DNA of 59,716 bases from Bacteroides sp. Its GTDB lineage: Bacteria; Bacteroidota; Bacteroidia; Bacteroidales; Bacteroidaceae. The position numbers and the translations under genes are program-made. A model generated the notes under the pieces. That model saw only the letters and a program-made list of their open reading frames with translations. It made no database searches and was not told the origin of the DNA. The stretch covers positions 1-59,716 of the forward strand of contig JAGBWA010000057.1 in the NCBI GenBank assembly GCA_017630035.1. The letters run 5' to 3'. Shown here piece after piece: positions 2,615 through 37,139 of this stretch. How positions within the stretch are numbered: position 1 is the first letter of the stretch; each line of letters starts with the position of its first letter.

Positions 2615-3631
2615 ATGACATATATAATTATTTTTGCTCTGCTATTTGTAGCAGAGCTTTTTTATTTTCGTGTTGCGGATAAGTGTAACATTATTGATAA
2701 GCCGAATGAACGGTCATCTCACTCGACGATTGTGCTTCGTGGGGGTGGTATCATTTTCTTATTGGCTCTATGGATATGGAGTGCGTTCTTCGGGTTTATG
2801 TACCCGTGGTTCTTGTTGGGGGTGACGCTGATTGCGGGGGTGAGTTTCTGGGATGATGTGCGCTCGTTGCCGGATTCGGTACGGCTAGTGGCTCAGTTCA
2901 TTGCGATGGGGATGATGTTTTATGAATTGATAATTGATAGTGGAGAATTGATAATTACTGCATGGTGGATGTGGCCACTTATCGTTTTAGGGGCGCTTAT
3001 CGTGTGTGTGGGGGCAACGAATGTTATCAATTTTATGGATGGTATCAATGGTATTACGGCGGGATATGCGCTTGCTGTGTTGGTGCCGCTGTTGTTGGTG
3101 AATGCTTCTGAAGGGTTTATTGATGAATCGTATCTGATTGTAGCGATATTGGGTGTGTTGGTGTTCTGCTTCTTTAACTTCCGCCCGAAGGGTAAGGCGA
3201 AGTGCTTTGCCGGGGATGTGGGTAGCATCAGTATTGCGTTTATCATGCTGTTTGCTATCGGGAAGTTAATTGTGCAGACGGGGGATGTGACGTACCTGAT
3301 CTTCCTCTTGGTGTATGGGGTGGATGGTGTGCTGACTATCTGTCACCGCATCATGTTGCATGAGAATCTTGGGGAGGCGCATCGAAAGCATGCGTACCAA
3401 CTGATGGCGAATGAGCTAAAGATTGGGCATGTGAAGGTGTCGCTATTCTATATGGCTTTGCAGTTTGTTGTGTCGCTTGGGTTTATTTATCTTTGCCCTG
3501 ATACAATTTTTGCGCATTGGATGTATCTCTTGGGGGCGCTTTTGCTTCTTGCTGTAGCGTATGTGTTGTTTAAGAGGAAGTATTATTATTTGCATGAGGA
3601 ATACTTACGCCAATTGAAAATTAAAAATTAA
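2615..3631 (+). CDS. WecA/WbpL-type undecaprenyl-phosphate sugar-1-phosphate transferase
   Basis: Polytopic inner-membrane enzyme of the MraY/WecA (GT4 phosphoglycosyltransferase) family that starts a polysaccharide unit on undecaprenyl phosphate. The 338 residues contain about ten membrane segments. Family motifs are in order: DKPNERSSH with RGGG near residues 27-45, NVINFMDGINGI (catalytic aspartate region) near 135-148, FAGDVGS near 198, and HRKHAYQ near 257. It follows the epimerase by 38 bases, the order seen for wbpV-wbpL. The last codons (QLKIKN and the stop) lie inside an AT-rich heptamer tract, so the C-terminal tail is repeat-derived. It is probably the last biosynthetic gene of the operon. 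Confidence 0.9.
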   Translation: MTYIIIFALLFVAELFYFRVADKCNIIDKPNERSSHSTIVLRGGGIIFLLALWIWSAFFGFMYPWFLLGVTLIAGVSFWDDVRSLPDSVRLVAQFIAMGMMFYELIIDSGELIITAWWMWPLIVLGALIVCVGATNVINFMDGINGITAGYALAVLVPLLLVNASEGFIDESYLIVAILGVLVFCFFNFRPKGKAKCFAGDVGSISIAFIMLFAIGKLIVQTGDVTYLIFLLVYGVDGVLTICHRIMLHENLGEAHRKHAYQLMANELKIGHVKVSLFYMALQFVVSLGFIYLCPDTIFAHWMYLLGALLLLAVAYVLFKRKYYYLHEEYLRQLKIKN

Positions 3632-3633
3632 AA
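3613..3633 (+). repeat. Heptamer tract, TTAAAAA type
   Basis: Three 7-base units of the ATTGAAA/ATTAAAA type that include the stop codon of the WecA-like gene. Confidence 0.8.
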
Positions 3634-3640
3634 ATGGATT

Positions 3641-3675
3641 CACTTTCCTTTTTGGCTTGATCCAAAAATAAAGTG
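3641..3675. terminator. Stem-loop after the polysaccharide operon
   Basis: CACTTT pairs with AAAGTG, and an inner TTTTTGG pairs with CCAAAAA around the loop CTTGAT, giving a two-part hairpin just after the WecA-like gene. There is no clean T run, so a rho-independent terminator is only likely. The stretch also resembles the start of a degraded dispersed repeat common in Bacteroides intergenic regions. Confidence 0.45.
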
Positions 3676-3865
3676 ACAAAGAAAAAGATCAAGGGCTGGA
3701 GTCTTCGGTGCTATTCGGGCAAAGCTATTAGTAGCCGGAGCTAAAAACTCGTTTCACTCAAACATACGCTCCTTACCTACTCCTAGCAAAGCCCTCAACA
3801 ACGCACCTACGCCAAGGCCCTTAGCCATGCGGCGTGTTTGCGTGGGTGTATTCGCCATGCGGTAT
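3676..3865. repeat. Degraded dispersed intergenic repeat
   Basis: A gene-free stretch containing AAAACTCGTTTCACTC, a phrase I recall recurring in Bacteroides intergenic DNA (recollection, not a search). At 3824-3853 it contains GCCATGCGGCGTGTTTGC, which recurs with two changes at 10580-10610 in this window; GCCATGCGG also appears a second time at 3854. No open frame worth calling. Confidence 0.45.
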
Positions 3866-3867
3866 AA

Positions 3868-3893
3868 TTAAATTAATAATTAAAAATTAAAAG
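3868..3893 (+). repeat. Heptamer tract, TTAAAAA type
   Basis: Units TTAATAA, TTAAAAA and TTAAAAG begin at 3873, 3880 and 3887, exactly seven bases apart, just before wbuC. Confidence 0.8.
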
Positions 3894-3901
3894 TTGGCGT
3901 T

Positions 3902-4330
3902 ATGCTGATAGACAATATACTTTTGGATTCGCTGTTTGAGCAGGCGAAGGTGTCGGAACGAAAGCGGATGAATTATGATTTGCGGACGAGTGCGGAGGAT
4001 ACGTCGCAACGGATGTTGAATGTGTTGCTGCCGGGTACGGTGGTGCCGATTCATCGGCATGAGGATACGACAGAGACGGTGGTTTGCCTAAAGGGCAGGT
4101 TGGAGGAGATCATCTATGAGGAGGTGGTGGAGTATTCGCGTGAGGAGACTTCACGGACTGAAGAGGTGGTGCGGAAGGTGTCGTTTAAGGAGGTATCTCG
4201 CCATTTGATTTGTCCTGCTGAAGGGCTTTATGGTGCTCAGATTCCGGCTGGGGCCTGGCATACGATTCATGTGATTGAGCCTTCGGTGATTTTTGAGGCG
4301 AAGGATGGGGGGTATAGAATTGAGAATTAA
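3902..4330 (+). CDS. wbuC: WbuC-family cupin metalloprotein
   Basis: Small cupin of the WbuC family, often found in O-antigen and capsule loci; its reaction is not established. Of 142 residues, the central barrel has a metal-site pattern: PGTVVPIHRHEDTTETV (two histidines and a glutamate) near residues 41-57, and GAWHTIHV near 117-124. It follows the WecA-like gene after a 270-base gap filled with repeats, and a strong terminator follows it, so it may be transcribed separately. Its last residues (IEN) and stop codon lie inside a heptamer tract. The cupin family assignment is firm; the function is unknown. Confidence 0.85.
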   Translation: MLIDNILLDSLFEQAKVSERKRMNYDLRTSAEDTSQRMLNVLLPGTVVPIHRHEDTTETVVCLKGRLEEIIYEEVVEYSREETSRTEEVVRKVSFKEVSRHLICPAEGLYGAQIPAGAWHTIHVIEPSVIFEAKDGGYRIEN

Positions 4331-4360
4331 AAATTAAAAGTTAAAAATTGAGAATAAGGG
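4319..4360 (+). repeat. Heptamer tract, ATTAAAA/ATTGAGA type
   Basis: Six consecutive 7-base units (ATTGAGA, ATTAAAA and GTTAAAA types, ending ATAAGGG) in perfect register, covering the wbuC stop codon and running up to the terminator. Confidence 0.85.
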
Positions 4361-4405
4361 GAATGCCGATGGGTACGGATGTACTTATCGGCATTCTTGT
4401 TTTTG
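4361..4405 (+). terminator. Rho-independent terminator, GCCGAT family copy 1
   Basis: GAATGCCGAT (4361-4370) pairs with ATCGGCATTC (4387-4396) and is followed by a T-rich run. The stem sequence recurs in four other terminators of this window. Confidence 0.85.
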
Positions 4406-4425
4406 CATGTTGCGGAGAGGGGGTG

Positions 4426-4472
4426 GTAACGGGTAACAGGGTAACATTTAAATTGAGAATTGAGAATTAAGC
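4426..4472 (+). repeat. Mixed heptamer tract (GTAACGG then ATTGAGA)
   Basis: GTAACGG and GTAACAG units at 7 to 8 base spacing pass directly into two ATTGAGA units and ATTAAGC at exact 7-base spacing. Confidence 0.65.
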
Positions 4473-5164: not shown

Positions 5165-5210
5165 TGAATACATTGGGATATTGGTATGTCTTGGAGGTAG
5201 TGTAATAACG

Positions 5211-5255
5211 GAATGCCGATGGGTACGGATATACTCATCGGCATTTTTTGTTTTT
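5211..5255 (+). terminator. Rho-independent terminator, GCCGAT family copy 2
   Basis: GAATGCCGAT (5211-5220) pairs with ATCGGCATT (5237-5245), followed by a T run. Stem and most of the loop match copy 1 after wbuC. It ends the toxin-antitoxin transcript and separates it from the convergent peptidase gene. Confidence 0.85.
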
Positions 5256-5261
5256 GCATGA

Positions 5262-5729
5262 CTATGTGTTGAGGTGCAGTACTTGGTGGCGGTTCTTTTT
5301 CTTGTTTTTGCGACAGGAGACGTGGATCCAGTAGTCGAGGCCATTCTTTGTTTCAAGGATTAGTTGGTCGAAGTCGGTGTGGTCCTTGAGGAAGGTGAAC
5401 CAATGGTGGGCAATCTCCATGTCGGTGTGGCGTTGTCCGTCCACCCAAGAGGTGTACTCGGTTTTGGGAAGGTAGATGTCGGCTGCTTCGCCTAAGGTGT
5501 GCTGGCTGGCATAGACTCCTCCTACCTTGATGTTGAGGGTTGGGGAACGATAACCGGAACTGATGATGATGGGCTGTCCAGCGAATTTTCGGAGGGGTTC
5601 GAGGATGGTGCGACAGAGTTGTTGCAAGGTGGGGATGTACTGCACGGGGATGGTGTTGTCTATGCCGTGAGCGGCTGCTACTGAAGAACGTTGGAATTCT
5701 TCCAAAGTGAAATGGGTGCTGAGAATCAT
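5262..5729 (-). CDS. M15-family peptidase (phage-type D-Ala-D-Ala carboxypeptidase-like)
   Basis: Zinc peptidase of the M15 family, of the kind that cuts peptidoglycan peptides in phage endolysins. Of 155 residues, the family motif SQHTLGEAADIY (zinc histidine and aspartate) lies near residues 78-89, preceded by SGYRSPTLN, and a second histidine lies in WIHVS near 136. There is no signal peptide, so export would need a holin or another route, none of which is visible here. It is last in a minus-strand block with DUF5675, primase-like and DUF3987 genes. In many Bacteroides capsule loci an amidase fills this position (recollection), so this may be its functional substitute. Confidence 0.83.
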   Translation of the reverse strand: MILSTHFTLEEFQRSSVAAAHGIDNTIPVQYIPTLQQLCRTILEPLRKFAGQPIIISSGYRSPTLNIKVGGVYASQHTLGEAADIYLPKTEYTSWVDGQRHTDMEIAHHWFTFLKDHTDFDQLILETKNGLDYWIHVSCRKNKKKNRHQVLHLNT

Positions 5730-5734: not shown

Positions 5735-5773
5735 ATTGAGAATTGATGGGAGTTACGGGTTACGGTTACGCTT
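5735..5773 (+). repeat. Heptamer tract, ATTGAGA then GGGTTAC type
   Basis: Units ATTGAGA, ATTGATG, GGAGTTA and CGGGTTA follow at 7-base steps and the last step is 6. The tract fills the gap between the M15 peptidase and DUF5675 genes. Confidence 0.65.
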
Positions 5774-6176
5774 TTGTCCAGTGTGAGCTGGAGGTGCATG
5801 GTTGGCACTTTGAGTCGTTGATAACAAGGGTGATTTGTTCCTCTCGTGCTTGACATTTTTCGATGCGCTCGAATAGGCGTACGTAGGTGCGAGTGGCTTT
5901 ATAAACTACTCCTGGGATGAGGGGGTGGCCTATGGCAATGATGTGTTGCTTATGTGAACCAATCCAAGATAATCCTATTCCGATACTCCAGCTTGTATTG
6001 GATATTCGGATGATGCGCCTTTTTGATTTATACCTGCATAGGCGGATTTGATATTTGCCAGGTGGTAGCATCGTGAGGGTATCTTCTATGGTATGGGTTA
6101 TTTGTTTGCCATTGACTTTTATTAGTCCTTCGGTGTAGAACTTGTTTTTGTAGGTACGATTAATGATGATGATCAT
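5766..6176 (-). CDS. DUF5675-family protein
   Basis: Conserved protein of unknown function matching the DUF5675 pattern: a beta-rich N-terminus (RTYKNKFYTEGLIKVNGKQ), then HTIEDTLTMLPPGKYQIRL and a late VRLFERI helix. In phages and Bacteroides capsule-flanking blocks this family often sits beside lysis genes, as here beside an M15 peptidase. The 136 residues are of normal size. Its ATG at 6176 overlaps the end of the primase-like gene by 17 bases, and its start region is built on a TGAGTTA heptamer tract. Biochemical function is not known. Confidence 0.75.
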   Translation of the reverse strand: MIIIINRTYKNKFYTEGLIKVNGKQITHTIEDTLTMLPPGKYQIRLCRYKSKRRIIRISNTSWSIGIGLSWIGSHKQHIIAIGHPLIPGVVYKATRTYVRLFERIEKCQAREEQITLVINDSKCQPCTSSSHWTKA

Positions 6177-7248
6177 GAGTTCTGAGTTGTGAGTTATGAG
6201 TTATGAGTTTTACGTAATATTCACTATAATCTTTTATGCCTTCTGGTAGTGGGTGGCGTACCAACTGTGGGAAAAGTTGTTTGAGTTGGAGGTAGAGTTT
6301 TTCGCCAGGGATGTCGGCATCGGGCGACATGTGGAGGTTTATGAGTTGTGAGTTCAGAGTGCTGAGTTCTGAGTGATTAGTGATGAGGGGTTTGAGGTCT
6401 TCTTCTTTGAGTAGGGTGGCGCTGGGGATGGCGATGGCTTTGCGACCACTGCTTAGGAGTGCCCAACAGTCGGAACAACCTTCGGCTATCCAGAGTTCTT
6501 CTCCGGGTTTAAGTAGTTTCAGTATCGGGAGGTTGTAAATGGAGATTCTGCTTCCTTGCGGGAAGAGGAATCTGGGTGGTGGGGGGATTAGGGCGGAGGG
6601 ATTAGGGCTTATGGGGGATGGTGGAGGGTTTAGGGCCCTACTCCCTACACTCTCCTCCCTCCTCCTTAATAGCCTGTTTTGTACACCTATCAATTGTCCA
6701 TCTATATCGAAGTAGGGGATTTGTAGCCATGGCGTTCCGTGACGGTCGGTGAAGGAGTTGAGGCGACACCAACGGATTACTCCAGGGTGGAACTTGCGTT
6801 CGGTAAAGAGGAAGAGGCGGGCAGCTGGATTTAGGTAAGGCTGTTGGAAATACTTTTCAAATCGTGTGGATTCGAAGGGGGTAGGGTTTAGGGTTGAGGG
6901 ATTAGGATTGCCATTTGGGTGGTGCCCTACACCATACTCCCTCCTCCCTGCACCATGTTCTTCTGCCAGCCAATCGCACGTTTCTATGAAGTTTTTGCCC
7001 AATACATGCATGGCAAGGTCTATTACACCTCCGTGGGCACCACATACGAAACATTTGTAACTGTTTCTCCTTACATGGATAGATAGGCTGGGGTGGTTGT
7101 CGTTGTGGAACGGGCATAATGTTTTGTGATGGGTGACCTTTAGTCCTAACCGTTCGGCTACTCCCTCGATGGGGAGGTCGCGGAGTTTTTGAATAGCTTC
7201 GTTAGTATAGGGTTTGGAGTGTAGGGTATAGGGATTCATGTTGTTCAA
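6160..7248 (-). CDS. CHC2 zinc-finger/Toprim DNA primase-like protein with repeat-encoded insertions
   Basis: DnaG-like primase fragment: zinc-binding domain plus Toprim-like catalytic region. The zinc ribbon is C45-P-F-H48 with C66-F-V-C69, followed by GGVIDLAM. The Toprim signature is LWIAEGCSDCWALLSSG near 252-268 and a DAD in MSPDADIPG near 309-311. About a quarter of the 362 residues come from heptamer tracts kept in frame: roughly residues 5-13, 97-124, 193-222, 286-302 and the C-terminal 346-358. These parts are proline-rich or low-complexity and should be loops. Its start overlaps the DUF3987 stop by 4 bases (ATGA), and the two probably act together as in phage-type replication modules. 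Activity is uncertain given the insertions. Confidence 0.82.
   Translation of the reverse strand: MNNMNPYTLHSKPYTNEAIQKLRDLPIEGVAERLGLKVTHHKTLCPFHNDNHPSLSIHVRRNSYKCFVCGAHGGVIDLAMHVLGKNFIETCDWLAEEHGAGRREYGVGHHPNGNPNPSTLNPTPFESTRFEKYFQQPYLNPAARLFLFTERKFHPGVIRWCRLNSFTDRHGTPWLQIPYFDIDGQLIGVQNRLLRRREESVGSRALNPPPSPISPNPSALIPPPPRFLFPQGSRISIYNLPILKLLKPGEELWIAEGCSDCWALLSSGRKAIAIPSATLLKEEDLKPLITNHSELSTLNSQLINLHMSPDADIPGEKLYLQLKQLFPQLVRHPLPEGIKDYSEYYVKLITHNSQLRTHDHHH
6176..6210 (+). repeat. Heptamer tract, TGAGTTA type
   Basis: Five perfect 7-base units, all TGAGTTN. On the minus strand they encode the C-terminal ITHNSQLRTH of the primase-like protein, and they overlap the region just upstream of the DUF5675 start. 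Confidence 0.9.
6342..6390 (+). repeat. Heptamer tract, TGAGTTC type, inside the primase-like gene
   Basis: Seven units such as TGAGTTG, TGAGTTC, TGAGTGA and TTAGTGA at exact 7-base steps. Read in frame on the minus strand as residues of about 286-302 (TNHSELSTLNSQL). Confidence 0.85.
6584..6670 (+). repeat. Two-armed G-rich/C-rich heptamer array inside the primase-like gene
   Basis: Seven units of the GGGATTA/GGGTTTA type (6584-6632) meet, at a central GGGCCC, five units of the CCCTACT/CCCTCCT type (6636-6670) in the opposite orientation. Seven-base register is kept in each arm. It encodes a proline-rich stretch of the protein, about residues 193-222. Confidence 0.85.
6877..6959 (+). repeat. 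Second two-armed heptamer array inside the primase-like gene
   Basis: Five G-rich units (GGGTTTA, GGGTTGA, GGGATTA types, 6877-6911) are followed after a short GGTGCC-containing joint by five C-rich units (CCCTACA, CCCTCCT types, 6925-6959). Same layout as the array at 6584-6670. Encodes about residues 97-124. Confidence 0.85.
7209..7236 (+). repeat. Heptamer tract, AGGGTTT type, at the primase-like start
   Basis: Four 7-base units (AGGGTTT, GGAGTGT, AGGGTAT and AGGGATT types) just inside the gene start, encoding about residues 5-13 (NPYTLHSKP). Confidence 0.75.
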
Positions 7249-8591
7249 TTTTTAATGTAGTTTTTAATATATATTTCTTGATGTAAGTCCGGTTGATGAA
7301 TTAGCTTGGCTTTTTTCCACTTATGGAGGAAAATGCGAGCAGGCGAGAGGCCTAATTTGGCACATAGCTCTTGAAGCTGGTCGCGTGAAAATTGCGTGGG
7401 TATTTGGTCGTAAAGTGGTGTGACAACCCCTTTGTTTACATCGTCATCGTGCTTGTGCATCTCGTCGTATTGACGGCCCCATTGGGTAAGTAATCCATCA
7501 AGGATATATTGTGCCATGAAGTGGTAGAATTTGATGCAATGCTTTTTTATTGGGCTTAGGGTTGATGGATTAGGGATATCATCTATGCACCACAAATGAT
7601 AGAGCATACAGGTGAGTCGCCAAGCTGATACACTGGCACGTTTGTAGAAGCAGTTGTGGGCACGCGAACCGGTCTTGAGGATGATGGTCCGTTGTTCGGC
7701 ACACCATTTGCGCACACTGTTTTCTATCCATTCCATATCAATGTTGAGAATGGGTTGTAGGCGGTCATCGTCTGTATAGGTTTCGTCCATTAAACGGGCA
7801 ATGGTTTGGGTAATTAGGTTACGCTCTTGCTCGGTTTGCCTTCGAAATACCGGTGCATCTTCGCCAAGCAGGTCTTCGTCTATGCGTGTCAGAATTTTGC
7901 GGGTGCAGTTGCCACCCTCGATGGCACGCTTGTTGATGTATTCGTTGAGGGCATTCTCGGTGCCGCAAAACAGACTACAGTAGATGATGTCCACATCGGC
8001 ATTGTAGCTGGCATCGGAGAGGGTATCGCTACCGTATTCGGCACCAAGGTCGTAGGCCAAACGATCCATGGTGTTAAGGTCGGCAAAGGCACGTTTGTTG
8101 GATTCGGTCATGGTGGCCAACTCTTCGTTAAAGAAGAAAAAGGATAGTGGCTCGCCATATTTACGAATGAACATATCGGCACGTTTTACCAGTTTGGCTC
8201 GCGTGATGGTCTGCAGGTTGCGGGTGCAGGTGATAGGTTCTTCGGGTAACTGTTTATTCTTGGCTGCAGTCTTCTTTAGGTCGTTATAAGCCTGTTCGAT
8301 TCGTTTCTGCTCAATGTCTTTGAGCTTTAAGGGTCTAAGCAGTTGCTTTACTATGGGTCGTGTGAAGGATTTACCCGAACCTGGTTCGCCCAATACCAAT
8401 AGCTGGATGAGCAAAGCATGTGGCTCAAGGTCGTACACATATTTGGCTCTTATCCTGGTGCCCAAGGCGCAATAGCAGTCGAGGGCCGTCAATATAGCTG
8501 CTATGCGAAATTGTTCGGGAGCTGTATCCCAGAATACTCGGAGTGATGGGGGGAGGTTTGATGCTGAAAGTGTCGTTGTAGGTTTAATCAT
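7245..8591 (-). CDS. DUF3987-family P-loop protein
   Basis: P-loop protein of the DUF3987 family, usually next to primase-like genes in phages, plasmids and Bacteroides capsule-flanking blocks; a helicase or ATPase role in replication is presumed, not shown. Walker A is GEPGSGKS at residues 68-75; a hydrophobic strand before an acidic pair (SFFFFNEELAT) near 180 fits Walker B. The 448 residues are near the usual size. Near residues 338-347 the sequence PNPSTLSP is encoded by a G-rich heptamer tract and matches a peptide in the neighbouring primase-like protein. Its stop overlaps the start of that gene by four bases. The C-terminal end (YIKNYIKN) is AT-rich and repeat-like. Confidence 0.83.
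   Translation of the reverse strand: MIKPTTTLSASNLPPSLRVFWDTAPEQFRIAAILTALDCYCALGTRIRAKYVYDLEPHALLIQLLVLGEPGSGKSFTRPIVKQLLRPLKLKDIEQKRIEQAYNDLKKTAAKNKQLPEEPITCTRNLQTITRAKLVKRADMFIRKYGEPLSFFFFNEELATMTESNKRAFADLNTMDRLAYDLGAEYGSDTLSDASYNADVDIIYCSLFCGTENALNEYINKRAIEGGNCTRKILTRIDEDLLGEDAPVFRRQTEQERNLITQTIARLMDETYTDDDRLQPILNIDMEWIENSVRKWCAEQRTIILKTGSRAHNCFYKRASVSAWRLTCMLYHLWCIDDIPNPSTLSPIKKHCIKFYHFMAQYILDGLLTQWGRQYDEMHKHDDDVNKGVVTPLYDQIPTQFSRDQLQELCAKLGLSPARIFLHKWKKAKLIHQPDLHQEIYIKNYIKN
7552..7579 (+). repeat. Heptamer tract, GGGTTGA type, inside the DUF3987 gene
   Basis: Four 7-base units (GGGCTTA, GGGTTGA, TGGATTA, GGGATAT types). Read on the minus strand it gives IPNPSTLSP, almost the same peptide as the array at 6877-6911 gives in the next gene. 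Confidence 0.85.
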
Positions 8592-8596
8592 TGAAA

Positions 8597-8631
8597 TTAA
8601 AAATTAATAGTTAAAAATTAAAAGTTATTTT
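8597..8631 (+). repeat. Heptamer tract, TTAAAAA type
   Basis: Five units (TTAAAAA, TTAATAG, TTAAAAG, TTATTTT types) in exact register fill the gap between the small unknown gene and the DUF3987 gene. Confidence 0.8.
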
Positions 8632-9806: not shown

Positions 9807-9875
9807 TCACTGATGACCTATGTCTATCTTCACTGATGAACAATGTATGCCATCACTGATGACTGCAGGAATCAA
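9807..9875 (+). repeat. Three 23-base direct repeats in the HU-like gene leader
   Basis: TCACTGATGA starts at 9807, 9830 and 9853, exactly 23 bases apart; the rest of the first two units also agrees at most positions (common ATGT core). Confidence 0.85.
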
Positions 9876-9903
9876 CAGCAGTGTATTAAATCGTTTTACT
9901 GCT

Positions 9904-10542
9904 ATGATTAATTATTCAATTACAATGCGTCCGGTGAACGCAAATCTTTTTGAAATTAATGCAGCTAAGGGTCGCATTAAGGAGGCTTTGGCTAAAGGTG
10001 AAACACCCAGTAGCGCGGATGAGGCGTTGGTGAAGAGCGAGGTGCAACATGCGTTTGCGGTGGCTCAGTATTCGGATGTGATGACCATCGAGAAGTTTGC
10101 CCGCCACATCGCTACCCACGGCTGTGTCTATTCGCGTGCGGACATCAGTGCCATTCTCTACTTGGCGGTGGATTGTATGCGTGAGATGTTGCTGGATGGC
10201 CGCAAGATTCGCTTGGGCGACTTGGGCGATTTCTCGGTGAGCCTCTCGTCGAAGGGTGCCGAAACAGCGGATAAGTTCTCTTCTGCGAACATCTCGGCCG
10301 TGAATGTGGTGTGGGACTGCGGTCAGGAGTTTAAGAACTTGCTGCCCGATGCGGAATTTAACCTTGTGGCGAGTCGTGCTGCTCAGGCTGCTGTGTTGAA
10401 GGCTATCAAGAGTGGCAACTCTATTGTGGATCTTGGGGCGACCGGCTCGAATGTACCTTCGGGGGATGATGATGAACCGACTAATCCTTCGGGTCCTACT
10501 ACCGGTGGGGGCGATGATGATGAACTCGATCCGTTGGGATAA
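9904..10542 (+). CDS. HU-like DNA-binding protein with acidic tail
   Basis: Bacteroidales HU-family (HU-HIG type) DNA-binding protein, 212 residues from the ATG at 9904. That start matches the usual N-terminus MINYSITMRPVNANLFE; an upstream in-frame ATG at 9820 would add 28 residues encoded by direct repeats and is unlikely. The HU fold spans roughly residues 30-150 (AVAQYSDVMTIEKFARHI, SRADISAILYLAV, GRKIRLGDLGDFSVSL). After FNLVASRAAQAAVLKAI comes a Gly/Asp/Pro-rich tail ending in DDDELDPLG, presumably disordered. Proteins of this type flank capsule loci in Bacteroides, with a smalltalk gene and often an amidase; here smalltalk follows but no amidase. Confidence 0.88.
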   Translation: MINYSITMRPVNANLFEINAAKGRIKEALAKGETPSSADEALVKSEVQHAFAVAQYSDVMTIEKFARHIATHGCVYSRADISAILYLAVDCMREMLLDGRKIRLGDLGDFSVSLSSKGAETADKFSSANISAVNVVWDCGQEFKNLLPDAEFNLVASRAAQAAVLKAIKSGNSIVDLGATGSNVPSGDDDEPTNPSGPTTGGGDDDELDPLG

Positions 10543-10548: not shown

Positions 10549-10576
10549 ATTATGATTTATGATTTATGATTTATGA
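10549..10576 (+). repeat. Heptamer tract, TTTATGA type
   Basis: Four 7-base units (one ATTATGA, three TTTATGA) right after the HU-like stop codon. Confidence 0.85.
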
Positions 10577-10695: not shown

Positions 10696-10803
10696 ATGGA
10701 AGAACAGAAAAAGAAGAAAAATACGTTTGAATTGATTTTGAAGATTATTATTGCGGTGGCTTCGGCGATTGCTGGTGCGATTGGGGCTGCGGCGTGTTGT
10801 TGA
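10696..10803 (+). CDS. Smalltalk-family small protein
   Basis: A 35-residue protein: lysine-rich start (MEEQKKKKNTF) followed by one hydrophobic helix (LILKIIIAVASAIAGAIGA) ending in ACC. This layout, charged head, single membrane segment and small-residue end, is that of the Bacteroidales smalltalk proteins, which sit between HU-like genes and amidases at capsule loci. It lies 153 bases after the HU-like gene on the same strand. The function of the family is unknown. The stop codon begins a TAGCTAC heptamer tract. Confidence 0.8.
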   Translation: MEEQKKKKNTFELILKIIIAVASAIAGAIGAAACC

Positions 10804-10842
10804 CTACTAGAGATTAGCTATTAGCTACTATACTAGTGACTA
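10801..10842 (+). repeat. Heptamer tract, TAGCTAC type
   Basis: Six 7-base units (TGACTAC, TAGAGAT, TAGCTAT, TAGCTAC and similar) starting at the smalltalk stop codon. Confidence 0.8.
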
Positions 10843-10880
10843 GATCGTTTGCAGACTATTGTCATGCGGATGAAAACGAA

Positions 10881-10904
10881 GACGCCTCTGTGAGACGTCT
10901 CTAC
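10881..10904 (+). repeat. Dispersed GACGCCTC/GAGACGTCTCTAC element, copy 1
   Basis: A 24-base element, GACGCCTC followed by GTGAGACGTCTCTAC after one or two variable bases; copy 2 at 14949-14972 differs at one position. Confidence 0.75.
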
Positions 10905-10913
10905 TATTTTGGG

Positions 10914-10955
10914 AAATGCTGATGGGTACGAAAGGTGCCTATCAGCATTTTTTTG
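10914..10955 (+). terminator. Rho-independent terminator, GCCGAT family copy 3
   Basis: AAATGCTGAT (10914-10923) pairs with ATCAGCATTT (10941-10950), then T7. A compensated variant of the GCCGAT stem: CTGAT with ATCAG in place of CCGAT with ATCGG. Confidence 0.85.
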
Positions 10956-10996: not shown

Positions 10997-11021
10997 CGCA
11001 TTGTACAGATTTATTCGTTAT

Positions 11022-11828
11022 ATGGAAAATAACTTGCTAAAGAGAATTGTAGGGATGGCTTGCTTGCTGCTGTTATTGGTGGCTCCTGCTAAGGCGCAGT
11101 TTACGTATGGTACTACGGGCTTGCTGCATATGCCTACGGCGGATATGCAACGGGATAAGACCTTTATGTTTGGGGGTAGTTTCTTGAATGAACATGCAAC
11201 ACCAGCTCGTTTTAATTTTAATACCTATAACTATTATATAAATATTACCTTCTTTCCTTGGTTGGAGGTAGGTTATACATGTAATCTTTTTACAGCTAAA
11301 TCGTTAGGTTTGGATAAACATGGTTATTCAGGTTTTACCAATCAAGATCGTAATTTTAGCGGACGCCTTCGTTTATGGAAAGAGGGTTGGTGGAAAGAGT
11401 GGACACCACAGGTTGTTGTAGGTGGGAATGATGTACTCCATGGTTCGGCTTATGGCGGTGATATAGGTGCTGTAGAAGGTGCAGGTATACGTGGTAATAC
11501 TTACTTTCAGCGTTATTATATAGCGGCTACCAAGCATATTGATTGGTATGGTAAGTGGGGAGTACATGCGGCTTATGTGTATAGTAAGCGTATTGGACAT
11601 GCTTTTAATGGCCTTGCTCTTGGTGTGGATTATACGTTTGCTTTGCCAGAGACATCGACACTGAATAAGGCGGTGAATAAGCTAAACTTGATGGCGGAGT
11701 ATGACTCAAAATTTGTAAACGTTGGTGCCAAGTATGCTTGCTGGAAGGATTACGTTAATGTGGTAGCGGAATTGCGGGAGTGTAGGTATCCTTCGGTGGG
11801 AGTTTACTTCAAAGTTCATTTGAAGTAG
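11022..11828 (+). CDS. YjbH-like envelope protein
   Basis: Predicted exported beta-rich outer-membrane protein related to YjbH, which accompanies exopolysaccharide export in other bacteria. The ATG at 11022 gives 268 residues and a clean signal peptide (basic start, LLLLLVAPAKAQ, cut after AKA); a TTG at 11001 would only add seven residues. After cleavage comes the YjbH-type opening TYGTTGLLHMPTADM, then many alternating aromatic strands (NTYNYYINITFFPWLEVGY) up to the end VGVYFKVHLK. It has its own -7 box and stands between the capsule-flanking block and the uronic-acid genes, so a role in polysaccharide export is plausible but inferred. Confidence 0.7.
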   Translation: MENNLLKRIVGMACLLLLLVAPAKAQFTYGTTGLLHMPTADMQRDKTFMFGGSFLNEHATPARFNFNTYNYYINITFFPWLEVGYTCNLFTAKSLGLDKHGYSGFTNQDRNFSGRLRLWKEGWWKEWTPQVVVGGNDVLHGSAYGGDIGAVEGAGIRGNTYFQRYYIAATKHIDWYGKWGVHAAYVYSKRIGHAFNGLALGVDYTFALPETSTLNKAVNKLNLMAEYDSKFVNVGAKYACWKDYVNVVAELRECRYPSVGVYFKVHLK

Positions 11829-11852
11829 TTCTGAGTTCTGAGTTAAGAGTTA
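11825..11852 (+). repeat. Heptamer tract, TGAGTTC type
   Basis: Units GTAGTTC, TGAGTTC, TGAGTTA and AGAGTTA in 7-base register, covering the YjbH-like stop codon. Confidence 0.8.
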
Positions 11853-11903
11853 ACTTCCTTCGGTCGTTCAAAACCTCTTTGGATTTTTAACAATCAAGGA
11901 ATA

Positions 11904-11929
11904 GTAAAAGTTAAAAATTAAGAATATAT
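11904..11929 (+). repeat. Heptamer tract, TTAAAAA type
   Basis: GTAAAAG, TTAAAAA and TTAAGAA units directly before the ATG of the epimerase gene. Confidence 0.7.
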
Positions 11930-12970
11930 ATGCGAATATTGATTACGGGGGCAGCGGGATTCATTGGAAGTAATCTGGTGAAGGCTGTGTATAAGTGTTA
12001 TGAGCATCCGGAGGTGATGGGCATTGATAATATGAATGATTATTACGATGTGCGCCTGAAGGAGGAACGATTGAAGGAGTTGGAGGCTTATCCTGATTTC
12101 CAGTTTGTACGTGGAAATATTGCGGATAAGGCTTTGATTGATTCGTTGTTTGCAGCGTTTAAACCACAAGTGGTGGTGAACTTGGCAGCACAAGCGGGTG
12201 TGCGTTATAGTATTACCAATCCGGGAGCGTATATTGAGGCGAACTTGATTGGTTTCTATAATATCTTGGAGGCTTGTCGCAACTCGTATGGCCAATACGA
12301 GGGTGGCGTGGAGCATTTGGTGTATGCTTCGTCGTCGTCGGTATATGGATCGAACAAGAAGATTCCTTACTCTACGGATGATAAGGTGGATAACCCGGTG
12401 TCGCTCTATGCGGCTACCAAGAAGAGCAATGAGCTGATGGCGCATGCGTATAGTAAGTTGTATAACATTCCTTCGACCGGACTTCGTTTCTTTACGGTGT
12501 ATGGTCCGGCAGGTCGCCCGGATATGGCGTACTTCGGCTTTACCAATAAGTTGGTGAAGGGGGATAAGATTCAAATCTTTAACTTTGGTAACTGTAAGCG
12601 CGACTTTACTTATGTGGATGATATTGTGGAGGGCGTGATTCGTGTGATGCAAAAGGCTCCTGCCAAGCAACTTGGCGAGGATGGTTTGCCTATTCCGCCT
12701 TATGCTGTTTATAACATTGGTAATAACCAACCGGAGAATTTGCTCGATTTTGTGACGATTCTGCAAGAGGAGTTGTTGGCTGCCGGTGTGCTGCCTGCGG
12801 ATTATGATTTCGAGGCGCATAAGGAGTTGGTGCCGATGCAGCCGGGGGATGTGCCGGTGACGTATGCGGATACGTCGGCCTTGGAGCGTGATTTTGGGTT
12901 TAAGCCTTCTACTTCGTTGCGTGAGGGGCTGAGGAAGTTTGCGCAGTGGTATAAGGAGTATTATAAATAA
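11930..12970 (+). CDS. UDP-glucuronate 4-epimerase
   Basis: Extended SDR that interconverts UDP-glucuronate and UDP-galacturonate in the cytoplasm. The NAD motif is TGAAGFIGSN at residues 6-15, then ASSSSVYGSNKKIP, the catalytic YAATK near residue 163, and RFFTVYGPAGRPDMA. The combination NLAAQAGVRYSI, DYYDVRLK and GRPDMA is typical of the GlcA 4-epimerase branch. Its 346 residues are normal. A galacturonokinase-like gene starts 10 bases after its stop and a nucleotidylyltransferase overlaps that, forming a uronic-acid operon. UDP-glucose dehydrogenase, which makes its substrate, is convergent 2 kb away. Confidence 0.87.
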   Translation: MRILITGAAGFIGSNLVKAVYKCYEHPEVMGIDNMNDYYDVRLKEERLKELEAYPDFQFVRGNIADKALIDSLFAAFKPQVVVNLAAQAGVRYSITNPGAYIEANLIGFYNILEACRNSYGQYEGGVEHLVYASSSSVYGSNKKIPYSTDDKVDNPVSLYAATKKSNELMAHAYSKLYNIPSTGLRFFTVYGPAGRPDMAYFGFTNKLVKGDKIQIFNFGNCKRDFTYVDDIVEGVIRVMQKAPAKQLGEDGLPIPPYAVYNIGNNQPENLLDFVTILQEELLAAGVLPADYDFEAHKELVPMQPGDVPVTYADTSALERDFGFKPSTSLREGLRKFAQWYKEYYK

Positions 12971-14153: not shown

Positions 14154-14884
14154 AATGTTTGATTCTTGCAGCCGGGTATGCTACCCGACTCTATCCATTG
14201 ACTGAGAATTTTCCAAAGCCTCTGCTTGAGGTGGGTGACAAAACCATCCTTGATTGGCTGATTGATGATATGGCCACTACCGGCTTGATTGATGAGTATA
14301 TCGTGATTAGTAACCATAAGTTTGCTCATATCTTCGAGGAGTGGGCGGCCAAGCATACGGTGGTAACCATTCGTGTGGTGGATGATGGTACTACGAATAA
14401 CGAAAATCGCTTGGGTGCGGTACGCGATATTCAGTTTGCCATTGACCAACTGCAACTGGACGATGACTTGTTGGTGATGGCGGGTGATAACTTGCTCGAC
14501 TTTAGTATGGCGGAATTTATTCGTTATGCGCACGATAAGCAAGCTACTTGCGTGATGAGTTATTATGAAGGCGATGCTGCCAAGCTTCGTAAGAGTGGGG
14601 TGGCAGAACTGGATGCCGACAGACGTATCCTCTCGATGGAGGAGAAACCTGCCGAACCAAAGAGCACTTGGTGTATTCCTGCCTTCTATTGCTACACACG
14701 CGAGGATAGCAAACTGATTGCGAAGGGTATTGAAAATGGTTGTGGTGTGGATGCTCCTGGTAGCTTCATTGCTTGGTTGTGCAAGCAGATTGCTGTGTAT
14801 GCTTGGGAAATGCCGGGTAAACGATATGATATCGGTAACTTGGAGAGCTATGAGGAGGTGAAGCGAAGCTATAAGGGGATTTAG
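14150..14884 (+). CDS. Sugar-1-phosphate nucleotidylyltransferase
   Basis: Nucleotidyltransferase of the RmlA/GlmU-N type that couples a sugar-1-phosphate to a nucleotide. It shows LAAGYATRLYPLTENFPKPL at residues 6-25 (pyrophosphorylase signature with a Y for the usual G) and VMAGDNLLDF near 108 with the metal-binding aspartate. 244 residues is the size of the short single-domain form. Its ATG overlaps the stop of the GHMP kinase (ATGA), so the two products are probably made in balance. In context it would turn GalA-1-phosphate into UDP-GalA. The nucleotide and sugar are inferred from neighbours. Its stop codon starts a heptamer tract. Confidence 0.82.
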   Translation: MKCLILAAGYATRLYPLTENFPKPLLEVGDKTILDWLIDDMATTGLIDEYIVISNHKFAHIFEEWAAKHTVVTIRVVDDGTTNNENRLGAVRDIQFAIDQLQLDDDLLVMAGDNLLDFSMAEFIRYAHDKQATCVMSYYEGDAAKLRKSGVAELDADRRILSMEEKPAEPKSTWCIPAFYCYTREDSKLIAKGIENGCGVDAPGSFIAWLCKQIAVYAWEMPGKRYDIGNLESYEEVKRSYKGI

Positions 14885-14907
14885 TGACTAGCTACTAGTG
14901 CTAGTAG
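14881..14907 (+). repeat. Heptamer tract, TAGCTAC type
   Basis: TTAGTGA, CTAGCTA and CTAGTAG units at 7, 7 and 6 base steps, covering the nucleotidylyltransferase stop codon. Confidence 0.65.
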
Positions 14908-14972
14908 AGACGTCATAGTATGGCGTCTCAAGTGTGGCGGTTTGCGGAGACGCCTCGGTGAGACGTCTCTAC
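14907..14972 (+). repeat. Dispersed GAGACG/CGTCTC elements, including copy 2 of the 10881 element
   Basis: GAGACG (14907-14912) is inverted as CGTCTC at 14924-14929, and 14949-14972 repeats the 10881-10904 element with one change. Confidence 0.7.
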
Positions 14973-15016
14973 GATGTGGTGGTTTATGCAGACATACCAT
15001 AGGTCCCTACTGATAT

Positions 15017-15056
15017 AAAAATGCCGATAGGGAAACCTACCGGCATTTATTTTAAC
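15017..15056. terminator. Terminator, GCCGAT family copy 4
   Basis: AAATGCCGATAGG pairs with CCTACCGGCATTT with one mismatch, flanked by A and T runs, so it can serve both convergent genes (nucleotidylyltransferase and ugd). Confidence 0.8.
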
Positions 15057-15078
15057 TTTTAACTTTTAATTTTTAATT
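15051..15078 (+). repeat. Heptamer tract, TTTAACT/TTTAATT type
   Basis: Four 7-base units in perfect register; the ugd stop codon (minus strand) lies inside. Confidence 0.85.
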
Positions 15079-22752: not shown

Positions 22753-23643
22753 TTATCTCCGGCTGGCATCGAATAGCGTTTTCTTCTCTTCACTTGTCAG
22801 GTTTTCATAGCCCGACTTCTTCAGTTTGTCCAGAATGCGGTCCACCTCTTCGTTTTGTGCCTTTTTGCGGGCGTTATAGTCATAATCGGTTTGGTGGCTT
22901 CCTCCATAAGTGGCCTTCATCTTGGGTTTCTTAGGTTTGAAGCTAAATAAAGATACTATCCAATCAATGGTTCGGTTGATCCATGAGGTGATGTCGGTTC
23001 CTTTGCTTAGGCTATGGGCAAACCACAATCCGGCTAAGGCACCACCCAAGTGGGCAATGTGTCCGCCGCTGTTGGCCGAGGTGATGAGGAGTAGGTCGGT
23101 GCCAATGACTATCAAGGCCAAATACTTCAAGCGAATGGTGCCCAATAGCAACAAACGGATGGGGTAGTTGGGTTGGCGGTAGGCGGTAGCAGCTACAATG
23201 GCCAATACGGATGCCGAAGCTCCCGACATGAAAGAGGCGTATCGGTAGGGCTCGAAGTAGGGAAAGAGGTTGAACGAAAGCATGTAGAGCAATCCGCCAC
23301 AGATGCCTCCCAGAAGGTATAGCCCACGTAAATGTTTGGCCGAATAGGTTTGCAAGAAAAGGGTGCCAAACCAATAAAGCCACAACATATTGAACAAAAT
23401 GTGCCACACACCACTGTGTAGAAACATGTAGGTAAGTATGGACCAAGGCTGAATGAGGAAGCGTTGGGGCCATGCCGGCAGTTCGAGCCAATGGAATAGG
23501 CCGGTTATGTTGATATTGAACAATAGCAGAATGACACTTACCAAGGTGGTGATGATGAACACGCCTGCATTGATGTAGATGAGCTGGATGCAGATGGAAC
23601 CTCGGCGGAAGTTATCCTTTAGTTCATTGATAATAGTATTCAT
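22753..23643 (-). CDS. Rhomboid-family intramembrane serine protease (longer copy)
   Basis: Integral inner-membrane protease that cuts membrane proteins inside the bilayer. The catalytic serine is in SGASASVLA near residue 142, and the catalytic histidine in GGHIAHLGGALAG near 197; HSGVWHILFNMLWLYWFG is the conserved TM2 region. The 296 residues include a C-terminal cytoplasmic tail rich in lysine (about 240-296) absent in the neighbour copy. Its start overlaps the end of the preceding rhomboid gene by 20 bases, so the pair is probably co-translated. The substrate is unknown. Confidence 0.9.
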   Translation of the reverse strand: MNTIINELKDNFRRGSICIQLIYINAGVFIITTLVSVILLLFNINITGLFHWLELPAWPQRFLIQPWSILTYMFLHSGVWHILFNMLWLYWFGTLFLQTYSAKHLRGLYLLGGICGGLLYMLSFNLFPYFEPYRYASFMSGASASVLAIVAATAYRQPNYPIRLLLLGTIRLKYLALIVIGTDLLLITSANSGGHIAHLGGALAGLWFAHSLSKGTDITSWINRTIDWIVSLFSFKPKKPKMKATYGGSHQTDYDYNARKKAQNEEVDRILDKLKKSGYENLTSEEKKTLFDASRR

Positions 23644-32304: not shown

Positions 32305-32334
32305 CACCGCATTTGAGAGGAAATGGTTAAAAAT

Positions 32335-32408
32335 TCTTCCTTAGCTCAGTCGGTTAGAGCATCTGACTGTTAATCAGAGGGTCCTTGGTTCAAGTCCAAG
32401 AGGAAGAG
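32335..32408 (+). tRNA. tRNA-Asn (GTT), copy 1
   Basis: 74-base cloverleaf: acceptor TCTTCCT pairs with AGGAAGA, discriminator G, anticodon GTT in CTGACTGTTAATCAG, T arm CTTGGTTCAAGTCCAAG. CCA is not fully encoded. Confidence 0.96.
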
Positions 32409-32429
32409 CAAAATCCTATCAAATGTCAT

Positions 32430-32503
32430 TCTTCCTTAGCTCAGTCGGTTAGAGCATCTGACTGTTAATCAGAGGGTCCTTGGTTCAAGTCCAAGAGGAA
32501 GAG
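32430..32503 (+). tRNA. tRNA-Asn (GTT), copy 2
   Basis: Identical 74-base copy of the first tRNA-Asn, 21 bases downstream, followed by a terminator. Confidence 0.96.
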
Positions 32504-32504
32504 C

Positions 32505-32540
32505 AAACGAGACTTACAAATGAGTAGGTCTCGTTTTTGT
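32505..32540 (+). terminator. Terminator of the tRNA-Asn pair
   Basis: AAACGAGAC (32505-32513) pairs with GTCTCGTTT (32528-32536) and runs into T5. Confidence 0.85.
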
Positions 32541-32545: not shown

Positions 32546-32580
32546 ATAACTCATAACTCAGCACTCTTAACTTAGCACTT
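32546..32580 (+). repeat. Heptamer tract, ATAACTC type
   Basis: Five 7-base units (ATAACTC, AGCACTC, TTAACTT, AGCACTT types) in perfect register, ending exactly at the ATG of the Nudix gene. Confidence 0.85.
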
Positions 32581-33099
32581 ATGAAACATCCTTTCTATCA
32601 GTTCGTTTATTGCCCAAAATGTGGTTCGAAGGAGTTTGTCGAGCAGAACGATAAGGCAAAACATTGTCGTGCTTGTGGATTTACCTATTATTTCAATCCG
32701 TCGGCATCTACGGTAGCATTCATCTTGAATGAACGCAATGAGTTGTTGGTGTGCCGACGTGCGAAAGAGCCAGCAAAGGGAACTTTGGATTTGCCCGGTG
32801 GCTTTTTGGATACTTACGAAACGGGCGAAGAGGGTGTGATTCGTGAGGTGAAAGAGGAGACGGGCATGGAGGTGTTGCAGACGGAATACCTATTTTCTAT
32901 CCCTAACCGCTATCTTTACTCCGATTTTGTGGTGCATACACTCGATTTGTTCTATCGTTGTCGGGTGAAGCAATGTGAAAACCTTGAGGCTCATGATGAT
33001 GTGGCCGAGGCTTTTTTTATCCCCTTAGAGAGAGTGAACCCGGAGGATTTCGGGCTCGACTCTATCCGTAAAGGGGTAATTCGTTTCTTAACTATCTGA
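32581..33099 (+). CDS. Nudix hydrolase with zinc ribbon
   Basis: Nudix pyrophosphohydrolase of 172 residues with an N-terminal four-cysteine ribbon (CPKC at 11-14, CRAC at 30-33), resembling the NudC-like layout though shorter than NudC. The Nudix box is complete: GGFLDTYETG followed by EEGVIREVKEETGM near residues 72-95, with the REVKEE metal-binding core. Likely substrates are nucleotide-linked compounds; not assignable from sequence. Its last 8 bases overlap the end of the convergent pepP gene. A heptamer tract forms the whole space before its ATG. Confidence 0.88.
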   Translation: MKHPFYQFVYCPKCGSKEFVEQNDKAKHCRACGFTYYFNPSASTVAFILNERNELLVCRRAKEPAKGTLDLPGGFLDTYETGEEGVIREVKEETGMEVLQTEYLFSIPNRYLYSDFVVHTLDLFYRCRVKQCENLEAHDDVAEAFFIPLERVNPEDFGLDSIRKGVIRFLTI

Positions 33100-36009: not shown

Positions 36010-36680
36010 CAGAAAATAGTATATCCAACGAACAAACCGGTTTAGACAAGGCCGCCATCTGGCTGTCGAGGTTGACAACACCCACCATTATGCCAACGCT
36101 TGTCTTCATTTTCATCTTCATTGGTAGCTACTTGCGCATTATGCCTGTGGCCTATCGGATGATGGTGGTGGGTATTGTGGCTTGTTTCACTTGTCTGCTT
36201 CCGGCACTCTTTATGTTGGCGTTGCGCATCTTCGATAAAACCTCTTCTGGGGCAAAGGATGCAAATAGCGATAAGGGACAAACAAGGTTTATGTTTGCCT
36301 CCTCGTACCTTGTTTGCATTGTCTTGATGGCTAAGTTGGGCATGCCTTGGTACTTGACGGCCGTTCCATTGGCGTCATTGCTCATCATGCTTTTGTGCTA
36401 TCTGCTTGGCATTTGGTGGCGAGTCAGTTTGCACATGGCTGCAATGGGTGGTGTAATAGGCTCATTGGTTATGTTTGCTATGCTATTAGGTTATAATCCT
36501 GTGTGGGCACTTGCTGCTCTTGTGTTGTTGGCCGGTTTGTTGGGCACAGCTCGTATTGTTGCAGCCGAACATACTAATCTACAGGTGTTTGGTGGTTTTG
36601 CCATTGGCTTTATCATTGCTTGCTTGTTGCTCTATCCCACAAGCAGCCTCCTTTTGCAAAAACTTTTATTTATCTATTAA
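36006..36680 (+). CDS. PAP2-like integral membrane protein
   Basis: Membrane protein of 224 residues with about six hydrophobic segments (residues 26-48, 52-73, 97-115, 118-136, 143-165, 168-215). The C-terminal part resembles a type 2 phosphatidic acid phosphatase: WRVSLHMAAMGGVIGS carries a motif-2-like histidine and TARIVAAEHTNLQVFGG a motif-3-like Arg and His with the usual Asp replaced. Motif 1 (KxxxxxxRP) is not seen. It may be a lipid phosphatase variant or an inactive relative. Its ATG overlaps the rpoN stop (ATGA), so it is translated with rpoN. Confidence 0.65.
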   Translation: MTENSISNEQTGLDKAAIWLSRLTTPTIMPTLVFIFIFIGSYLRIMPVAYRMMVVGIVACFTCLLPALFMLALRIFDKTSSGAKDANSDKGQTRFMFASSYLVCIVLMAKLGMPWYLTAVPLASLLIMLLCYLLGIWWRVSLHMAAMGGVIGSLVMFAMLLGYNPVWALAALVLLAGLLGTARIVAAEHTNLQVFGGFAIGFIIACLLLYPTSSLLLQKLLFIY

Positions 36681-36698
36681 CCATAAAAACTTATAATT

Positions 36699-37076
36699 AT
36701 GAACGTTCCTACAAATTTGAAGTACACAAGCGAACATGAATGGATTCGCGTGGAAGGCGACATTGCCTATGTTGGTATTACCGATTATGCACAAGCACAA
36801 TTGGGCGATATTGTATTCGTTGATATCCAAACTGAAGGCGAAACATTGGCTGCCGGTGATGTATTTGGTACCATCGAGGTAGTAAAAACTGTATCAGACC
36901 TCTTCTTGCCAGTTGCCGGTGAAGTGTTGGAACAAAACGAAACGTTGGCCGATCAACCAGAGTTGGTGAATACCGACCCCTATGGCGAAGGTTGGCTTAT
37001 TAAGATTAAACCTGCTGCCAATGCCGATTATGATGCACTGCTCGATGCAGAAGGATATAAGGCAGTGATTGAATAG
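36699..37076 (+). CDS. gcvH: Glycine cleavage system H protein
   Basis: Lipoyl carrier protein that shuttles the aminomethyl group between P and T proteins of glycine cleavage. 125 residues; the lipoylation lysine is in FGTIEVVKTVSDLF near residue 63; the start KYTSEHEWIRVEGD and the end NTDPYGEGWLIKIKP are diagnostic. gcvP and gcvT are not in the window. It lies 18 bases after the PAP2-like gene, and its stop codon begins a long heptamer tract ahead of purE. Confidence 0.96.
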   Translation: MNVPTNLKYTSEHEWIRVEGDIAYVGITDYAQAQLGDIVFVDIQTEGETLAAGDVFGTIEVVKTVSDLFLPVAGEVLEQNETLADQPELVNTDPYGEGWLIKIKPAANADYDALLDAEGYKAVIE

Positions 37077-37139
37077 TTGTTAGCTACTAGTGACTAGTGT
37101 GAAATTAAACTTTTAATTTTTAATTCTCAATTTAATAAA
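37074..37139 (+). repeat. Long heptamer tract, TAGCTAC type passing into TTTAATT type
   Basis: Four TAG-containing units (TAGTTGT, TAGCTAC, TAGTGAC types), then, after three bases, TTAAACT, TTTAATT (twice) and CTCAATT in exact 7-base register. Begins at the gcvH stop codon and fills the space to purE. Confidence 0.88.

Follow-up and report, generated by a model that had tools for sequence, protein, structure and literature searches.

The 59,716-nt contig of a Bacteroides species considered here (JAGBWA010000057.1 of GenBank assembly GCA_017630035.1; the whole of it is called the window) carries a scatter of short tandem arrays that differ in sequence and share a step of seven nucleotides. These tracts are, with a probability that we put at roughly 0.65, arms built of tandem repeats that belong to small inserted elements akin to the intervening sequence (IVS) of 23S rRNA. 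In relatives and in other phyla the full element lies between two genes and consists of an array with four to five copies of a 7-nt unit (8-nt in some cases), an open reading frame (ORF) of ~120 amino acids encoding a protein of the S23 family, and an inverted array; ORF-less forms, made of two arms and a short core, and lone arrays outnumber it. Between species the element is seen to occupy a spacer in one and to be missing from the corresponding spacer of others. A preliminary description of the window, which dealt with the tracts alone, missed both the inverted pairing of the arms and the S23 ORF of the full element in relatives.

The 7-base signal is genuine and extends beyond the window. 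At a score of 9 the window holds 13 lag-7 segments, as against a mean of 0.2 and a maximum of 1 in 20 local order-1 shuffles, and the other lags (4-6, 8-13 and 15) yield 0 to 4 segments apart from lag 14, a harmonic, with 8. In 283 kb of other contigs of the same genome lag 7 gives 9 segments at score 11 (0.4 when shuffled), the runners-up among lags 2-24 being lag 21 (6), lags 12 and 23 (5) and lags 14 and 22 (4); the excess outside the window that the preliminary description had proposed as a check is therefore present, and its view that a single step unites many unlike sequences holds there too. The window is denser in such segments, with 10 per 60 kb at score 11. Twelve of the 20 tracts originally listed are among the 13 score-9 segments (3613, 3868, 4319, 4426 as 4451, 6176, 6342, 6877, 8597, 10549, 11825, 15051, and 37074 as 37111) and eight are weaker (5735, 6584, 7209, 7552, 10801, 11904, 14881 and 32546), while the thirteenth segment, at 23171 within an ORF, had not been listed. 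Across the window and the sampled contigs of its genome 21 of 23 period-7 arrays lie outside ORFs, and the arrays are long simple repeats in the sense of tandem units of 5-11 nt above chance. Seven is the commonest period, as had been proposed, but not the sole one, since relatives also carry arrays of 8 and 9 nt.

Arrays of AATT type occur in 42 of 61 genomes, and many of their plus and minus matches stand 50-200 bases apart; where such places were read in relatives they proved to be array, core and inverted array, filling the gap between genes. A small protein of one type is encoded both by the gene between the arms in genome G016 (locus L310) and by a gene in G031 (L031). Armed elements lacking an ORF account for 80 rows in relatives, giving the combination of inverted ends and short ORF-less forms that is seen in miniature inverted-repeat transposable elements (MITEs). 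Compared with the reverse complements of right arms, a left arm matches the one at its own locus better than those elsewhere, 10.4 versus 4.2 for 18 pairs in named Bacteroidales and kin and 18.1 versus 11.5 for 15 pairs in G031, and the same variant units may stand in mirror order in both arms (L179; S23 loci L332 and L333). Array orientation follows the adjoining gene. Among 163 arrays sorted outside ORFs (26 further arrays, inside ORFs, were left out), with 38 that have a gene nearby on each side and 18 that have no gene nearby set aside, G exceeds C in 60 of the 61 with a gene close on the left, and C exceeds G in 36 of the 46 with a gene on the right (G exceeds C in 8; equal in 2), whether a gene start or a gene stop adjoins; this is the rule that inverted element ends would give. 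One contig was left out of the pairing and orientation tests, and the presence of arrays partly guided the choice of stretches in G031 and G012, so that array counts there are not rates. Sorted by surroundings, 79 element places comprise 40 between co-directional genes, 23 convergent, 5 divergent, 4 inside ORFs and 7 unsorted.

The protein encoded by the full element is S23 (PF05635), the four-helix-bundle "23S rRNA intervening sequence protein". For three of these proteins, taken from other loci, the matches to PF05635 and TIGR02436 exceed the cut-off, and P0003 matches DivGenRetAVD at 3e-8, below the cut-off of that model. The best solved structure for S23 proteins is 2gsc, XCC0516, whose paper announces five four-helix bundles in its title, as given in the reference list of PMC10053308. 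A search of 61 genomes found the family in 36, and 14 control genomes had none; within the genus it is present in 20 of 37, and the density of AATT-type arrays has a median of 4.4 per Mb in the 20 genomes with S23 versus 0.8 in the 17 without (one-sided p 0.025).

At 88 S23 loci from five phyla an array stands on at least one side in 83 cases and on both sides in 58, and an inverted match of 14 or more at 63 of the loci gives complementary ends round the ORF. The corresponding values are 29, 21 and 20 for the best S23 match of 30 genomes, 18, 13 and 15 for 18 named plasmid loci, and 36, 24 and 28 for 40 further loci; periods of 7-9, 6-10 and 5-12 were admitted in these three batches, so that the totals of 83 and 58 mix these ranges. 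The left-right match is 18.5, 20.8 and 18.5 in the batches of 30, 18 and 40, as against about 8.8, 8.8 and 8.7 with permuted right flanks. Control ORFs, which were picked mechanically and are not all genes, have arrays on both sides in 3 of 1497 mechanical, 6 of 458 size-matched non-overlapping and 19 of 1355 longer cases, and on either side in 55 of 458 size-matched and 250 of 1355 longer cases; one control with a strong inverted match turned out to be an S23 ORF. The 70 loci that are not from the plasmid batch (the best of 30 genomes and 40 picked others) come from 100 S23 matches listed in 36 genomes. The idea itself came from L434 and L439, both among the 40, without which the counts are 81 and 56 of 86; L336, in the batch of 30, was read in a frame with 4 stops. 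The plasmid loci were chosen for spread from plasmid matches (29 and 25 records) and are 14 cyanobacterial loci plus Bernardetia, Treponema, Monoglobus and Chlorohelix, the cyanobacterial set including two plasmids of one Nostoc and the nearly identical loci L362 and L363.

Among 142 array-bearing S23 sides the best period (of 5-12) is 7 on 109, 8 on 22 and 9 on 3, with a median of 4.4 copies, and the orientation rule is followed on 58 of 70 informative sides (48 loci). All S23 loci that were read sit between protein genes and not inside 23S rRNA, some of them between operon partners such as cas10 and cmr3, cas6 and cas4, or restriction subunits S and R. In two Nostoc plasmids S23 adjoins a shared neighbour protein, on one side in the first and on the other side in the second, and the arm units differ. 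The cyanobacterial parallel drawn in the preliminary description is supported, heptads being found beside S23 ORFs of Nostoc, Anabaena and Trichormus, among others.

Orthologous spacers differ in the elements that they hold. Spacer 222 is 12 nt long in G009 and G021, contains an armed element in ~90 nt in G012, just one 7-nt array in each of G022 and G018, and array, gene and inverted array in G016; its units, by eye, are GTAACTA in 1.7 copies in two species and GTAATTA-like in three copies in another. At L232 ~85 nt of element in G012 replaces ~17 nt of older spacer, and G021 has a different hairpin there. At spacer 223 (L223 10545-10660, L271), where for most loci just one side could be aligned, G012 and G009 both carry an element; by eye, the core is inverted between these close species and the unit AATAAGA is found in both arms of G009 and in neither arm of G012. 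In a third spacer the arm family differs between two species, both sides having changed, and other species carry unrelated hairpins at orthologous spacers. Among the genes concerned are ones that we take to be gcvH, carA, serC, serA and the like. Where the preliminary description proposed to look for gain or loss of whole 7-base units, orthologous elements of two close species differ by one such unit (by eye).

The link to the window runs through its own genome, which has one S23 match, L347, on a contig other than the window. The S23 element in this spacer is absent from all 21 relatives that could be aligned (of 22), whose spacers at the site measure 50-213 nt including margins, too short to hold the ORF. 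Both arms of L347 are built of the unit TGATTTA, identical to that of the window tract at 10550; TGATTTA-like arrays occur elsewhere in the same genome, mostly single, and AGTTATG, AATTGAG and AATTAAA also serve as S23 arms in relatives. Among the consensus units of the 13 window segments 8 are found in S23 arrays, as against 4.7 when letters are shuffled (10 of 500 shuffles reach 8). Inner ends are shared too: AAATRATAG follows 13 of 213 AATT-type arrays versus 0.14 expected, 5 of them at S23 loci and 8 not at an S23 ORF, and AAATAAATGT follows 5 of 213 versus 0.06 expected, 2 of them at S23 ORFs. On the basis of the shared arm units and shared inner ends, the window tracts are therefore read as lone or decayed arms of S23-type elements, a status that we infer, since the window has neither an S23 ORF nor a convincing pair of arms.

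Several observations weigh against this reading. No S23 ORF lies in the window, the single match of the genome being elsewhere, and no convincing inverted arm pair was found in it; the sharing of units between window and S23 arms is only moderate, and most arrays examined in the own genome are single. Arms do not pair in the window's own genome (3.6 versus 5.1 permuted, 5 pairs), and pairing in G012 is not significant (18.8 versus 16.6, maximum 20.2, 9 pairs). Five of the 88 S23 loci are without any array, and some S23 flanks have no inverted match (L366, L367, L375). Arrays also occur in genomes without detected S23, a family that 17 of 37 genomes in the genus lack; one genome without it, G023, has 97 array matches. 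In the few presence/absence cases, inspection by eye revealed no target-site duplication.

If the tracts are arms of such elements, the two arms of an element would copy from or recombine with each other by way of a hairpin, and units would be gained and lost by slippage. The S23 protein may act on the arms, and a five-fold S23 ring, taking one repeat per subunit, could set the 7-nt step. A ring of five subunits fits the arms because these hold four to five copies, and one repeat per subunit has an analogy in TRAP, which holds evenly spaced RNA triplets. Since Avd, a relative of S23, acts together with a reverse transcriptase, a route through RNA is possible. A much broader proposal, possible in our estimate and distinctly doubtful, is that the heptanucleotide repeats of distant bacteria, including the short tandemly repeated repetitive (STRR) sequences of cyanobacteria, are footprints of one mobile class whose sole gene encodes an IVS/Avd-type four-helix-bundle protein; a pentamer ring of this protein would bind about five 7-nt repeats and so set both step and arm length, and the class would spread via the hairpin, possibly as RNA with a borrowed reverse transcriptase.

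Replication slippage with a preference for 7 nt is the main rival, and may act alongside the element mechanism. In its plain form the polymerase slips by seven, template switching at hairpins equalises the arms, and S23 ORFs are one cargo among many or mere settlers. This accommodates arrays of many unrelated units with periods 7, 8 and 9, as well as the copy differences at spacer 222, and a passage of PMC4679880 cites Mrazek 2007 both for heptanucleotides being most abundant and for a polymerase-based reason. Slippage alone is nonetheless rather unlikely, in that it leaves unexplained why arrays are found at 83 of 88 S23 loci versus 55 of 458 control ORFs (on both sides at 6 of 458), and equally the orientation rule, the shared inner ends and the precise presence or absence of elements. 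Addition of repeats in the manner of telomerase, by a reverse transcriptase acting on both ends of a break that are then joined, would suit the orientation rule, arrays being C-poor when read outward from the gene on both sides, and the partial loss of the older spacer at L232; PMC12632851 describes a reverse transcriptase from bacteria whose product is tandem-repeat DNA. The same variant units would not be expected in mirror order in both arms, nor the arms to change together, and because of these two features copying between arms is favoured and telomerase-like addition appears very improbable.

A selected gene-end device would keep the arrays for an RNA hairpin or for stop codons, as a two-way terminator, an insulator or a read-through block. 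In its favour, elements fill gene gaps, unrelated hairpins occupy orthologous spacers of other species, and, whichever way they are read, the elements have a G-rich 5' arm and a C-rich 3' arm. Arm mismatches in co-directional gaps, taken as sense RNA, are 26 G.U versus 32 A.C, and for want of this wobble bias RNA pairing carries no sign of selection. The idea of the preliminary description that stop-blocking favoured the step is rejected, as both-strand stops occur in 17 of 51 distinct units versus 12.3 (range 5-18) for letter-shuffled units, not a clear enrichment, and arrays lie inside ORFs whose frame stays open; arrays also adjoin divergent starts. We therefore regard the device as improbable. 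A link of tracts to gene ends does exist, and it concerns starts as well as stops: contrary to the statement that most tracts begin at or cover a stop codon, only about 8 of 20 are at a stop when compared by eye with the ORF list (3613, 4319, 10549, 10801, 11825, 14881, 15051, 37074), with 6 beside a start codon (3868, 5735, 6176, 8597, 11904, 32546), 5 inside two minus-strand ORFs that are kept open (6342, 6584, 6877, 7209, 7552) and 1 in mid-spacer (4426).

The tracts of the window, on the plus strand unless stated, begin with arrays of AATTAAA type at 3612..3635, which includes the stop codon of ORF 2615-3631, and at 3871..3892, directly before the start of ORF 3902-4330 and in the orientation opposite to that usual for a right-hand arm; the stop codon of this ORF lies in an AATTGAG/AATTAAA array at 4316..4346. 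In mid-spacer at 4425..4468 a GGTAACA tract, of period 8 by Tandem Repeats Finder, is followed by an AATTGAG array (4451-4468). A weak tract passing from AATTGAG to GGTTACG (5735..5770, below score 9) adjoins the start of minus-strand ORF 5262-5729, and a TGAGTTA array (6176..6209) lies at the start of minus ORF 5766-6176 and within the end of minus ORF 6160-7248. The latter ORF also contains a TGAGTTC array at 6342..6384, with the frame open; a weak G-rich tract (GGATTAG/GGTTTAG) followed by a C-rich one (CCCTACT) at 6584..6665; a TAGGGTT array at 6882..6910 with a C-rich CCCTACA-like stretch to ~6955; and, at its 5' end, a weak tract of GTAGGGT types at 7209..7236, below score 9. Besides itself it has only partial and distant matches, so that there is no array-free form to compare. 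Other in-frame 7-nt arrays within coding genes are at L218 (19424-19581) and L244, with repeats such as LNSQLSTLNSQL, in genes taken to be carA and a primase-like gene. Minus ORF 7245-8591 has a weak tract GGGTTGATGGATTAGGG inside it (7552..7576, below score 9) and an AATTAAA array just upstream of its start (8594..8627).

Further along, the TTTATGA array whose unit forms both arms of L347 is at 10550..10576, 8 nt past ORF 9820-10542, followed by a weak TAGCTAT/TAGCTAC tract at 10801..10827. An AGTTCTG array (11827..11853) stands at the stop codon of ORF 11001-11828, a weak tract AAAAGTTAAAAATTAAGAA (11904..11925) directly before ORF 11930-12970, and a weak tract TAGTGACTAGCTACTAGTGC (14881..14903) at the stop of ORF 14150-14884; after the last come two inverted hairpin repeats and a third hairpin, reaching 15048. 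Three entries are on the minus strand: an AGTTAAA/AATTAAA array at 15050..15078, at the stop of minus ORF 15073-16389; a weak 7-nt tract ATAACTC at 32546..32579, directly before ORF 32581-33099; and, at 37074..37132, a weak TAGCTAC/TAGTGAC tract at the stop of ORF 36699-37076 that leads to a TTTTAAT/CTCAATT array (37111-37132), which precedes the PurE-like ORF 37139-37645. A scan with this PurE-like protein places the window in Bacteroides, the best match being 91% identical and the first 13 matches listed all belonging to that genus.

Other repeats share these spacers. Hairpin repeats of the GTAGAGACG..CGTCTC type, which in our judgement resemble repetitive extragenic palindromic (REP) units or bacterial interspersed mosaic elements (BIMEs), are found at 10877-10910 and, as an inverted pair, at 14908-14980, as well as at L411 and L412, and adjoin arrays elsewhere in the genome. 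Spacers also hold four terminator-like hairpins that resemble one another (AATGCCGATGGG.. / ..CATCGGCATT and variants), at 4355-4400, 5205-5250, 10917-10955 and 15018-15048, some of them next to 7-nt arrays. The only Rfam matches in the window are two tRNAs, identical genes that, in the sequence as assembled, form an exact 95-nt tandem duplication (32333-32507). Palindromes with 9-nt arms (CACAGATTA, CACAGAGGG and GCGGATTAC types) recur at one spacer (L379-L399) across many Bacteroides species and at L130, L139, L235 and L248; their arms vary between species, match within each, and are rarely if ever at S23 ORFs. The CACAGATTA and GCGGATTAC types were at one stage equated with the 7-nt elements and are now kept apart because period 9 is best on only 3 of 142 S23 sides. 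L018, from 1135 onward, is a composite palindrome: its left side passes from 9-nt to 7-nt units, and its right side mirrors this in the same order.

The proposed elements share features with a number of known systems. IVSs that carry an S23 ORF within 23S rRNA are known. One of them, the Coxiella IVS of 428 nt, is called selfish in PMC4990558, where its mobility is no more than supposed. The elements resemble it in having one small ORF of the same family between complementary ends, and differ in lying between protein genes, not in rRNA, and in having tandem 7-nt arrays as ends. Heptanucleotide repeats are likewise known in several groups, with TAACTGA repeats reported in Beggiatoaceae, cyanobacteria and five Bacteroidetes (PMC4679880, in the part consulted). 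These share short intergenic heptanucleotide arrays with the present elements, and in cyanobacterial plasmids such arrays flank S23 ORFs; the accounts, as far as their consulted parts go, treat the arrays alone. The STRR sequences of cyanobacteria are heptanucleotide repeats as well, and the likeness to them is one of general type, not of named units. The long repeats ascribed to slippage, as Mrazek 2007 is cited in a passage of PMC4679880, agree in a unit of 5-11 nt, in heptanucleotides being commonest and in whole-unit differences, whereas the arrays here are inverted pairs tied to an ORF family.

MITEs have in common with the elements the inverted ends, short ORF-less forms and presence or absence between species. 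Unlike MITEs, the elements have ends of many sequence types; no target-site duplication was noticed in the few cases judged by eye, and the full form carries S23 and no known transposase, no search for transposases with such ends having been made. Diversity-generating retroelements have an accessory protein, Avd, whose partner is a reverse transcriptase (PMC10053308), and S23 is a related four-helix bundle, P0003 giving the below-cut-off match mentioned above; unlike in Avd systems, retroelement parts were not noticed at S23 loci, though none were looked for. Searches limited to an open-access library turned up no paper joining heptad repeats to S23. If the reading offered here is true, it links the abundance of heptanucleotides among long bacterial repeats, the role of S23 ORFs and the origin of rRNA IVSs, and it connects an element of which little is understood with repeats long familiar from bacteria. 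For a type of repeat hitherto attributed to polymerase slippage there would be a gene that can be deleted and an assay for binding, and much of the spacer DNA of Bacteroides, and perhaps of Nostoc, may be element debris, which matters for the interpretation of operon gaps and for repeat typing.

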